37,365 nucleotides of DNA from an uncultured Mycoplasmatota bacterium (lineage in GTDB: Bacteria; Bacillota_I; Bacilli_A; RF39; UBA660). The notes under the pieces were generated by a model, which ran no database searches, was not told the DNA's origin, and saw nothing but the letters and a program-made list of their open reading frames with translations. Position numbers and translations under genes: made by a program. Positions 23,543 through 37,365 of the stretch are shown in pieces; position 1 is the first letter of the stretch, and each line of letters begins with the position of its first letter. Location of the stretch: positions 1 to 37,365 of the forward strand of contig CANSRH010000017.1 in the NCBI GenBank assembly GCA_947649365.1, read 5' to 3'.

Positions 23543-24586
23543 ATGAAAACAACCAAAGACGTAAAAGACAAAGATAAAGCATTAGAGGCAGTTCTAGCAG
23601 ATATAGAAAAACAATTTGGAAAAGGAGCCATCATGAAACTTGGCGAGGATTCTCATATGGAAATAGATGTGACAAGTAGTGGTTCCCTAACACTAGATGT
23701 AGCCTTAGGAGTCGGAGGATTTCCAAAAGGAAGAATTATAGAAATCTATGGACCAGAATCTTCTGGAAAAACAACCTTTGCCTTACAAGCGATAGCAGAA
23801 GTTCAAAAAGTAGGAGGAAGAGCAGCATTTATTGACGCAGAACATGCTCTAGATCCTGTATATGCTAAAAATTTAGGAGTCAATATTAATGAACTTTTAT
23901 TATCTCAACCAGATACAGGAGAGCAAGCATTAGAAATTTGTGAAGCATTAGTAAGAAGTGAAGCAGTAAATATTGTAGTCATTGACTCCGTAGCAGCTTT
24001 GGTTCCTCAAGCAGAAATTGATGGAGAAATGGGAGATACGCATGTAGGATTACAAGCAAGATTAATGAGTCAAGCCCTTCGTAAACTATCTGGAACAATT
24101 AATAAAACAAAAACAACAGCTATATTTATCAATCAATTAAGAGAAAAAGTAGGAGTCATGTTTGGAAATCCAGAAACAACTCCAGGAGGAAGAGCATTAA
24201 AATTCTATTCAACAATACGTTTGGACATTCGTCGTGCAGAACAAATAAAAAATGGAGACCAAGTAATAGGAAATCGTACGACAATTAAAGTAGTAAAAAA
24301 TAAAGTAGCGCCACCATTTAAAACAGCAAGTGTAGATATTATGTACGGAGAAGGAGTAAGTCGTGAAGGAGAAATCATTGATATTGCTAGTGAATTAAAC
24401 ATTGTAGAAAAAAGTGGTGCTTGGTATTCTTACAATGGTGAAAAAATAGGACAAGGAAAAGAAAATGTAAAAGCAATGCTTAGAGAAAATAAAGTACTTA
24501 AAGAAGAATTAGAACATAAAGTACGTGTACATTATGGTTTTGATAAAGAAACAGAAAAGAAAGAAAAAATACCAGTAGAAGAATAA
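23543..24586 (+). CDS. recA: Recombinase RecA
   Basis: RecA is the homologous recombination and SOS coprotease ATPase. It has an N-terminal helix ([26 protein letters not shown]), Walker [10 protein letters not shown] (near residues 72-80), Walker [10 protein letters not shown], the DNA-binding loops ([19 protein letters not shown], and [20 protein letters not shown]) and a short acidic C-terminus. The length of 347 aa is typical and no intein is present. The gene has its own promoter and terminator and is monocistronic. Confidence 0.99.
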
Positions 24587-24605
24587 CAATAATTTTATTG
24601 TATGA

Positions 24606-24630
24606 GATAACGAAAACGTTATCTTTTTTT
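24606..24630 (+). terminator. Rho-independent terminator of recA
   Basis: GATAACG (24606-24612), loop AAAA, CGTTATC (24617-24623), T7. Confidence 0.92.
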
Positions 24631-24631
24631 A

Positions 24632-24661
24632 TTGATTTTTTTGCTGGGGGGGGGGTATAAT
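24632..24661 (+). promoter_or_regulatory. thyA-folA promoter with a G10 tract in the spacer
   Basis: TTGATT (24632-24637) and a perfect TATAAT (24656-24661) are separated by 18 bp. Ten of these are a G homopolymer (24646-24655) that abuts the -10. A tract of nine would give the optimal 17-bp spacing, so tract length could set promoter strength, as known for Neisseria porA. The effect here is inference. Confidence 0.7.
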
Positions 24662-24709: not shown

Positions 24710-25564
24710 ATGACAAAAGGAGATATGTACACAAAACAAATTTTTGAAAGGATTTTAAAGGAAGGTTGCTTAGACGAAAATCCACGTCCTCATTATGAAG
24801 ATGGAACACCTGCCCATACGTTAAGTGTCAATCATGGAATGTGTACCTATGATTTAACCGGGGGGGGGGAGTCTCCATTAATAACTTTAAGACCAATTGC
24901 TATAAAAAGTAGCATTGGTGAATTATTATGGATATACCAACAACAATCCAATAATTTAGATGTTTTAAAAGAAAAATATCATGTAACTTGGTGGGATGAA
25001 TGGGATATTGGTAATAGGACAATTGGCACTTGTTATGGACATACTATAAAACGATACAATTCTATGGAAAAATTATTAGATGGAATGAAGAAAGACCCAG
25101 ATGGAAGACGTCACATAATTAGTTTGTGGCAGGAAGAAGAATTAAATGACAATCCAGGTCTAAAACCATGCGCTTTTTTAACAATGTGGAATATTCGCCA
25201 TGGAAAAGATGGAGTAGACTATCTAGATATGTGTTTAACACAGCGCTCGAGCGATTTTGCAACAGCTGGATGTATCAATCAAGTACAATATTTGATTTTT
25301 CAACTAATGGTTGCAAGACATCTTAATTTAACACCTGGTCGTTTTACTTGGTTTTATAATAATATTCAAATTTATGATAGACATATTGAACAAGTAAAAG
25401 AAATGCTTCGAAGAGAGCCAATAGAATGTAATCCAAAATTTATACTTAATCCAGATAAAACCAACTTTTTTGACTTTGAACCAAATGATGTAATTCTAGA
25501 AGATTATCCAAGACAATTAATAAAAGAAAAAAATCCACAATTAAAATTTGAGATAGGAATATAA
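24710..25564 (+). CDS. thyA: Thymidylate synthase
   Basis: ThyA methylates dUMP to dTMP using methylene-THF, which becomes DHF. Recognisable blocks are the SVNHGMCTYDL start, ITLRPIAIKSSIGELLWIYQQQSNN, the active-site cysteine in KPCAFLTMWNIRHG, QRSSDF and the dUMP-binding NQVQYLIFQLMVARHL...FYNNIQIYDRH. The length of 284 aa is normal. Residues 51-53 are three GGG-coded glycines inside a G10 tract (24860-24869), just before ESPLITLRP; relatives as I recall them have Lys-Gly-Glu there and one residue fewer. The frame is currently intact. folA follows 2 nt after the stop to recycle the DHF. Confidence 0.97.
   Translation: MTKGDMYTKQIFERILKEGCLDENPRPHYEDGTPAHTLSVNHGMCTYDLTGGGESPLITLRPIAIKSSIGELLWIYQQQSNNLDVLKEKYHVTWWDEWDIGNRTIGTCYGHTIKRYNSMEKLLDGMKKDPDGRRHIISLWQEEELNDNPGLKPCAFLTMWNIRHGKDGVDYLDMCLTQRSSDFATAGCINQVQYLIFQLMVARHLNLTPGRFTWFYNNIQIYDRHIEQVKEMLRREPIECNPKFILNPDKTNFFDFEPNDVILEDYPRQLIKEKNPQLKFEIGI
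24860..24869 (+). repeat. G10 homopolymer tract inside thyA
   Basis: Ten consecutive G encode three glycines plus the first base of a GAG codon. Any gain or loss not divisible by three truncates ThyA near residue 50-60. Confidence 0.9.
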
Positions 25565-25566
25565 AA

Positions 25567-26079
25567 ATGAAAGAAATAAATATGATTGCTGCAATCGGTG
25601 CGAACAGAGAATTAGGATATCAAAATGATTTAATATGGCATTTTAAAGAAGATATGAAATTCTTTCGTAAAATAACAAACGGTCATCCGATTATTATGGG
25701 GAGAAAAACATTTGAATCTCTTCCAAATTTGTTACCTAATAGACAACACATAGTATTATCACATCAAAATTTAGAAATACCAGAAGTAAAAGTATTTTCT
25801 TCTAAAGAAGAAATAGACTTCTACTTAAAAGAATTAGAAGAAATTCCATTTGTTATTGGAGGGGCTTCTTTATATCGAATGTATTTATTAGAAGCGAAAA
25901 GAATTTATTTAACAGAAATACAAGCTACTCATCCCGCAGATGTGTATTTTCCAGAAATACTTTTAGATAGATACGAAAGAAACACGATATATTCTGGCGA
26001 CGAAAGGAATACAAAATATGAAATAAATGAATATGTATTAAAAAAATCATTACAACTGGAAGCATCCAATAAGAATTAG
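25567..26079 (+). CDS. folA: Dihydrofolate reductase
   Basis: The enzyme reduces DHF to THF. The 170-aa sequence shows MIAAIGANRELGYQNDLIWHFKEDMKFF (Asn/Asp-Leu-Ile-Trp-His active site), HPIIMGRKTFESLP for NADPH binding and FVIGGASLYRMYL near residues 98-110. It is the second gene of the thyA-folA operon, 2 nt after thyA, so both would respond to the poly-G promoter. The target of trimethoprim is thus under the same potential switch. The stop codon is part of the terminator stem. Confidence 0.96.
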   Translation: MKEINMIAAIGANRELGYQNDLIWHFKEDMKFFRKITNGHPIIMGRKTFESLPNLLPNRQHIVLSHQNLEIPEVKVFSSKEEIDFYLKELEEIPFVIGGASLYRMYLLEAKRIYLTEIQATHPADVYFPEILLDRYERNTIYSGDERNTKYEINEYVLKKSLQLEASNKN

Positions 26080-29136: not shown

Positions 29137-29741
29137 ATGACAAATCAAAAGAAAGGTATCTTCTTTATTGGAAAAAGTGGGAGTGGAAAAGATACATTTT
29201 ATGTGAGTACTCTAGAAAAATACCAAATAGAACGTGCAACTCCCTATACAACACGACCAAAAAGACCTGGAGAAAAAGAAGGAGAAACCTATTATTTTAT
29301 TACCCAAGAAAAAATGGACTGGCTTGAAAAAACAAAACAACTTTTGGAAATTCGGAAATACAACGCGACTGGGGGGGGGTCTGGACTTATGCTACTGGGA
29401 GAGAACATTTTAATTTAGAAGAAAATAATTATTTAAATATCATCACATGGCAAGGGTATGAACAATTTTTAAACTATTATCCTCGTAGTCAATTAATCCC
29501 TTTCTATTTTCAAATGGATGATGGAATTCGACTAGAACGAGCAATCGATAGAGAAATTAATACCAACAATAATAAGTTTCATGAATTGTGTCGTAGATTT
29601 CTAGCAGATAGCGAAGACTTTAAAGACGATTATATTGAAAAATACCAACCATTCCTAATCAACAATGATGGAGATGTCGAAAGTACTCAAAGCCAAATTG
29701 ATGATATATTGATTCACAAACTTCATATTTCTTTAAAATAA
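29137..29741 (+). pseudogene. Guanylate-kinase-like protein, frame broken at a G9 tract (possibly phase-variable OFF)
   Basis: The first frame (29137-29418, ATG behind CAGGAGG) has the nucleotide-kinase P-loop GKSGSGKD and the GMP-binding TTRPKRPGEKEGETYYF of guanylate kinases. The -1 frame continues without a stop as VWTYATGREHFNLEE...CRRFLADSEDF to the TAA at 29739-29741. The frames part exactly at nine G (29371-29379); ten or seven would restore one protein of about 201 aa. The CRRFLADSEDF tail and YN-x-W region recall a guanylate-kinase-like paralogue family rather than housekeeping Gmk (from memory). Current state: truncated after 93 residues. It may be phase-variable, decayed, or a sequencing error. 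Confidence 0.8.
29371..29379 (+). repeat. G9 homopolymer tract breaking the gmk-like gene
   Basis: Nine G follow codon 78 on a codon boundary. The downstream coding frame requires 3n+1 G. Confidence 0.9.
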
Positions 29742-37119: not shown

Positions 37120-37147
37120 AATAGATAGAAAATAGATGGAGGAAAAA

Positions 37148-37365
37148 ATGAAAAAAGAAAAGAAAATCCTCTCAACCTCTGAAAACTTCGGGGGGGGGGG
37201 TCTTAAGTAAAAAGAAAAACCCTAAGGATTTAGAGAAAAAACTACTAATCGTACTAAGTGTTTTAGGCATAGTAACAGTAATGATAGGAATCACGTATGC
37301 ATACATAGCATATTATACAAGTCAAAAAGAAATAAATGTACTAGAAAGTAGTTGTATCAAAATAG
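37148..37365 (+). CDS. Exported/membrane-anchored protein, broken near its start by a G11 tract; runs off the window
   Basis: The ATG at 37148 behind GGAGGA begins a lysine-rich N-terminus (MKKEKKILSTSENF) that enters eleven G (37190-37200) and then stops at TAA 37208-37210. With ten G the frame would continue as GGGVLSKKKNPKDLEKK, then a hydrophobic segment (LLIVLSVLGIVTVMIGITYAYIAYY) and a soluble start (TSQKEINVLESS) to the window edge. This is a typical N-terminal signal-anchor with a cytoplasmic basic tail, so a surface or secreted protein is expected. Strong promoter and SD argue against an old pseudogene. State here: OFF by +1. The C-terminus and family are unknown. Confidence 0.7.
37190..37200 (+). 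repeat. G11 homopolymer tract in the 5' coding region of the exported-protein gene
   Basis: Eleven G start on a codon boundary after codon 14. Ten (or 7, 13) would keep the downstream frame open. Confidence 0.9.

Follow-up and report, generated by a model that had tools for sequence, protein, structure and literature searches.

Poly-G tracts in the promoter spacer and coding sequence of a thyA–folA operon: a putative two-gate contingency locus in an uncultured Mycoplasmatota bacterium

Introduction

Phase variation is known mostly from surface antigens of pathogens, among them those encoded by the vlp genes of Mycoplasma hyorhinis, whose variable repeat is a poly-A tract in the promoter spacer. 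In Neisseria meningitidis, a poly-G tract is located between the -35 and -10 elements of porA, where a change of one base alters transcription and the optimum spacing is 17 bp (PMC7864442; PMC3899988). Treponema pallidum tp0126 also carries a poly-G between its -35 and -10 elements and is best transcribed at a spacing of 17 (PMC7864442). The promoter repeat of M. hyorhinis vlp controls surface antigens (PMC3899988), and Campylobacter jejuni NCTC11168 harbors 29 poly-G loci of seven or more (PMC4965091). Additionally, thymidine-dependent thyA variants have been described in Staphylococcus aureus (small-colony variants) and Haemophilus influenzae, in which ThyA loss leads to a need for thymidine and an altered antifolate response (PMC5476696; PMC8552798).

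The locus considered here is a thyA–folA operon on contig 17 of an uncultured Mycoplasmatota assembly (GCA_947649365.1; 1.47 Mb, 43 contigs, 31% GC); this contig, analysed over its whole length of 37,365 nucleotides, is referred to as the window. Like porA, thyA possesses a G homopolymer in its promoter spacer, with the same geometry as tp0126. Unlike porA, which is the promoter of a single outer-membrane protein in a proteobacterium, the arrangement is found here at about ten promoters of a single genome, one of them serving a metabolic operon in which the tract adjoins the -10 and a second tract lies in the coding sequence; tp0126 also differs, being an OmpW-like surface gene of a spirochaete for which no additional gate in its coding sequence is described. 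C. jejuni shows a similar number of tracts, a small AT-rich genome and a predominance of surface genes, but its tracts are described in reading frames, whereas about one third of those found here lie in promoter spacers (most of the others being within reading frames), MutS is present and the host belongs to the Bacilli. M. hyorhinis is a reduced relative with a promoter repeat as here, but its vlp repeat is an A tract rather than a G tract and acts on surface lipoproteins only. The S. aureus and H. influenzae thyA variants arise by mutation under drug selection, whereas a reversible, built-in switch is proposed here. A limited search of the open literature found no report of thyA phase variation or of this system in uncultured Bacilli.

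The thyA–folA promoter and coding tract

Since recA ends upstream of thyA and is followed by a terminator-like hairpin (Table 1), thyA and folA need a promoter within the intervening 84 bp, and between the hairpin and the thyA start the promoter scan returned a single match, TTGATT/TATAAT. The initial annotation had placed here a TTGATT and a perfect TATAAT 18 bp apart with ten G residues touching the -10, and all of these positions proved exact on re-inspection; the homopolymer thus sits between the putative -35 and -10 in a spacer close to 17 bp, as in porA. The -35 is weaker than those of sister G-tract promoters of the same genome, and a 10/12 match alone is little proof in AT-rich DNA (the scan of the window gave 7 promoter-like sites compared with 11.0 in shuffled sequence, i.e., no excess), so that the support for this promoter comes from the genome-wide pattern described below.

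The second G10 changes the DLT-KG-E of related proteins (ACAAAAGGGGAA) to DLT-GGG-E, which adds one residue in the alignment, apparently in a tolerant-looking loop. Among tract lengths from G8 to G12, only G10 yields full-length thyA (the in-frame series being G7, G10 and G13), and the other two frames reach a stop after 3 or 13 codons; neighbouring lengths would therefore truncate the protein, as in frameshift contingency loci. The operon thus carries both a transcriptional and a translational tract, and its state in the assembly (18 bp spacer and ON frame) looks expressed at both. The proximity of the two tracts, within 215 bp, is only mildly unlikely by chance, with about 0.14 such pairs estimated among 31 random tracts.

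Table 1. Features of the thyA–folA region and other tract-bearing genes of the window, with the related surface-protein loci
Feature	Position	Strand	Evidence or remarks
recA, upstream neighbour	23543..24586	+	PF00154 E=7e-141
Predicted intrinsic terminator of recA	24604..24625	+	9-pair stem then T run; 0.3 expected (shuffles); ends just 5' of the -35
Putative -35, TTGATT	24632..24637	+	4/6 consensus match
G10 in promoter spacer, adjoining the -10	24646..24655	+	no such tract at orthologous loci
-10, TATAAT	24656..24661	+	also in sister species G118 and G109 at the equivalent position
thyA, thymidylate synthase, 284 aa	24710..25564	+	PF00303 E=5e-59; frame analysis; alignment
Second G10, thyA codons 51-54	24860..24869	+	reads TGGGE; relatives TKGE
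folA, dihydrofolate reductase, 170 aa, thyA operon	25567..26079	+	PF00186 E=7.5e-45
Second guanylate-kinase-like gene	29137..29738	+	G9 at 29371-29379; OFF; in frame at G10; PF00625 E=1.6e-11 on first part
Surface paralogue start	37136..37364	+	G11 at 37190-37200; OFF (ON frame at G10); truncated by contig end
Surface paralogues	L010, L011, L013, L015, L017-L019, L022, L025-L027, L032, window 37136-37364		

History of thyA and supply of dTMP

The order recA–thyA–folA–rny is kept, in whole or in part, in two sister species, G118 (ThyA 90% identical) and G109 (85%, folA being absent there), whose thyA promoters retain the TATAAT and lack the tract. Moreover, of the 41 orthologous loci examined, none had a G run of six or more close to thyA. 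Shared ancestry of the thyA tract was therefore rejected, and both tracts must have been gained in this lineage.

Among the 22 genomes of the genus, thyA was found in three, folA in three and ThyX-like matches in eight, while 11 had neither ThyA nor ThyX. In G101, G105 and G110, the ThyX matches comprise two domains in a single ORF of about 500 aa. thyA is thus accessory in the genus and loss of dTMP synthesis is evidently tolerated, which makes a switch on thyA plausible. In the present genome, no ThyX, thymidine kinase (TK, PF00265) or dNK was recognised, and the TK and dNK families are hardly found in the genus; for this reason complete shut-off could be lethal unless another salvage route exists.

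G tracts across the genome, genus and class

The genome contains about 31 G tracts of 9–11, the mode being G10 (22 tracts), where none is expected by chance; their neighbourhoods were examined as extracted stretches. In the window itself, four tracts of at least nine G (8 overlapping matches) compare with 0.01 matches expected from shuffling, and since no G runs of 6–8 occur there, the window tracts constitute a distinct class. About ten tracts, including that of thyA and one G8, adjoin a perfect TATAAT. Eight of these ten show a perfect TTGACA at 15–19 bp upstream (15, 15, 16, 17, 17, 18, 18 and 19 bp), a motif that played no part in their selection; among tract-free TATAAT sites, a -35 of at least 5/6 was found at 12 of 213. 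Among the genes behind the promoter-class tracts are those for an ABC transporter, for two surface proteins of cell-wall type and for a Spo0A C-terminal domain protein, as well as several unknowns. At L009, G10 lies directly 3' of TTGACA and CATAAT is 18 bp away.

Flanked G10 tracts occur in all 22 genus genomes (2 to 63 each). Counted as G8 followed by TATAAT within 0–2 bases, the promoter pattern was found in 9 of 98 family genomes and in 39 of 395 class genomes (27 of 193 genera), the reversed pattern used as control in 0/98 and 3/395, and the C-tract version in one of the 98 family genomes; in the class sample, most G-tract/TATAAT sites again had a TTGACA at 15–19 bp. The porA-like spacer geometry proposed in the initial annotation is real, and its recurrence at about ten promoters of the genome and in 39 of 395 class genomes renders control by strand slippage likely. 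The kind of switch had been correctly recognised there, and the account was incomplete, having missed the thyA coding G10, the set of some 31 tracts and the accessory nature of thyA. It also predicted ideal spacing after loss of one G, and possible cell-to-cell variation in thymidine dependence or trimethoprim sensitivity.

At L023, L128, L147 and L151, from several species of the genus, a G10 lies near the 3' end of apparently the same gene and is followed by TTCTAGGTAA-like sequence, a recurrence which suggests that the tract itself is conserved. In G463 (C6:8343-27050), a single cluster contains at least six G-tract promoters at intervals of about 2 kb and may represent an array of switchable surface genes. 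A viral route for the spread of such promoters was considered and rejected (no exact match in viral contigs; viral ThyA relatives at most 61% identical).

Homologous copies of these tracts differ in length: promoters L029 and L031 of this genome carry G9 and G11, the copies L096 and L109 carry G10 and G11 with 48 of 50 flanking bases identical, and the surface paralogues differ between G9 and G10. Such differences point indirectly to slippage.

ON and OFF frames at coding tracts

Thirteen signal-anchor surface-protein paralogues bear the tract about 10–20 codons past the start, of which one is ON and 12 are OFF; the set is mostly arranged for ON at G9, and the sole in-frame copy, L022, is G9. 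Also OFF in the assembly are the guanylate-kinase-like gene, a gene of unknown function (L034) and a Fic-domain gene (L030, G000:C21) that is split by G9 and would be in frame at G10, while thyA and a CDP-alcohol transferase-like gene are ON. These adjacent ON and OFF frames give the set the look of contingency loci. The idea that an essential guanylate kinase is being switched was rejected because a full-length gmk is present at G000:C20. The ON gene L021 (G000:C9:60843) encodes a sigma-70-like protein (regions 2 and 4), possibly a phase-variable sigma factor, whose frame of at least 798 aa has a G10 midway.

Mismatch repair

MutS is present in 21 of the 22 genus genomes; thus a lack of mismatch repair does not account for the tracts, and its loss as their cause is not supported. 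Campylobacter is not known to have MutS, so slippage may be rarer here than in that genus. The mutS gene of this genome (L220:90-2639, minus strand; end of contig 37 and contig 23) lies about 1.8 kb downstream of a putative G-tract promoter on the same strand, which serves the Spo0A-C-domain gene and a kinase-like ORF. It seems that mutS also has an extended -10 of its own (TGGTATAAT), and tract-dependent mutS expression is a possibility suggested by this arrangement.

Discussion

The reading favoured here, to which we assign a probability of about 0.7, is that thyA–folA is a phase-variable simple-sequence contingency operon with two gates and one of some 31 G-tract switches in the genome. The observations behind it are the sequence, the spacer geometry, the frames, the absence from orthologues, the recurrence and the reversed-pattern controls; slippage of the tracts in vivo, promoter strength by tract length and the phenotype are what we infer. 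Since the two tracts of this operon belong to a set of about 31, random up and down switching by gain or loss of G is probable. Slippage in the spacer would reset the distance between -35 and -10 and hence the strength of the thyA–folA promoter: by analogy with porA and tp0126 (PMC7864442), G9 (17 bp) is expected to be strongest, G10 (18 bp) intermediate, and tracts from G11 (19 bp) upward weak, although the change from 17 to 18 bp may alter output only modestly. Slippage in the coding tract would set the ThyA frame, G10 being ON and G9 and G11 truncating the protein. folA output would follow the promoter and perhaps also translation effects, and the predicted phenotype is a mixture of ThyA and DHFR levels between cells, with variable thymidine need and antifolate response.

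A gentler version of this model, in which the tracts do slip and the effect on thyA is slight tuning or neutral, is unlikely. It holds that spacers of 17–19 bp all work and that purifying selection keeps the coding frame because ThyA is needed, which agrees with the expressed state found at both gates and with the lack of another recognised dTMP source in the genome. Nevertheless, selection should remove a hypermutable G10 from an essential gene, the sister species are free of the tract, and other tract promoters have 15 and 19 bp spacers consistent with weak states. The tract could instead be a fixed recognition element of a regulon, read by a regulator or an alternative sigma factor and not meant to vary in length; this is very unlikely. 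The sense strand invariably carries the G residues, the tract adjoins the -10 with few exceptions, the C version is almost absent, and the genome does encode a sigma-70-like protein with a G tract of its own, but tract lengths of 8–13 with spacers of 15–20 bp, differences of one or two G between homologous promoters, and the same tracts inside reading frames in both ON and OFF states are not what a fixed element would be expected to show.

Sequencing or assembly artefacts of two-colour Illumina chemistry are an extremely improbable source of the tracts. Several tracts do lie near contig ends, and contig 37 ends in a 48-G run beside a real tract; this run, outside the 31, is an artefact from reading into a tract and the only one among them. 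The internal tracts, in contrast, measure 8–13, have unique sequence on both sides and defined contexts, and occur in many independent MAGs, including all of those of the genus, whereas the reversed pattern is absent from the family; the artefact reading was rejected on the internal tracts of independent MAGs.

If thyA–folA is a two-gate contingency operon, its mechanism is most likely one already known, namely promoter-spacer homopolymer phase variation joined to a frameshift contingency locus. What is unusual is the large phasome in uncultured Bacilli and the doubly gated target, the sole detected dTMP synthase together with DHFR. A broader proposal is made more tentatively, and we consider it somewhat doubtful as a whole: a reversible two-gate slippage switch on this core DNA-precursor operon would maintain gut populations with standing thymidine-dependent, antifolate-tolerant subpopulations, and would be part of a class-wide system of G-spacer promoters, as yet unreported, that operates in uncultured Bacilli and also includes the sigma-like factor, the Spo0A-C protein and surface proteins.

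The many natural promoters of known spacing (15–20 bp) would allow strength versus length to be read directly from metagenomes. Within a gut-commensal G-tract phasome, the logic of slippage seems to have been applied to DNA-precursor synthesis, where a single operon bears two independent tracts; if true, this would explain how reduced genomes hedge between thymidylate synthesis and scavenging.
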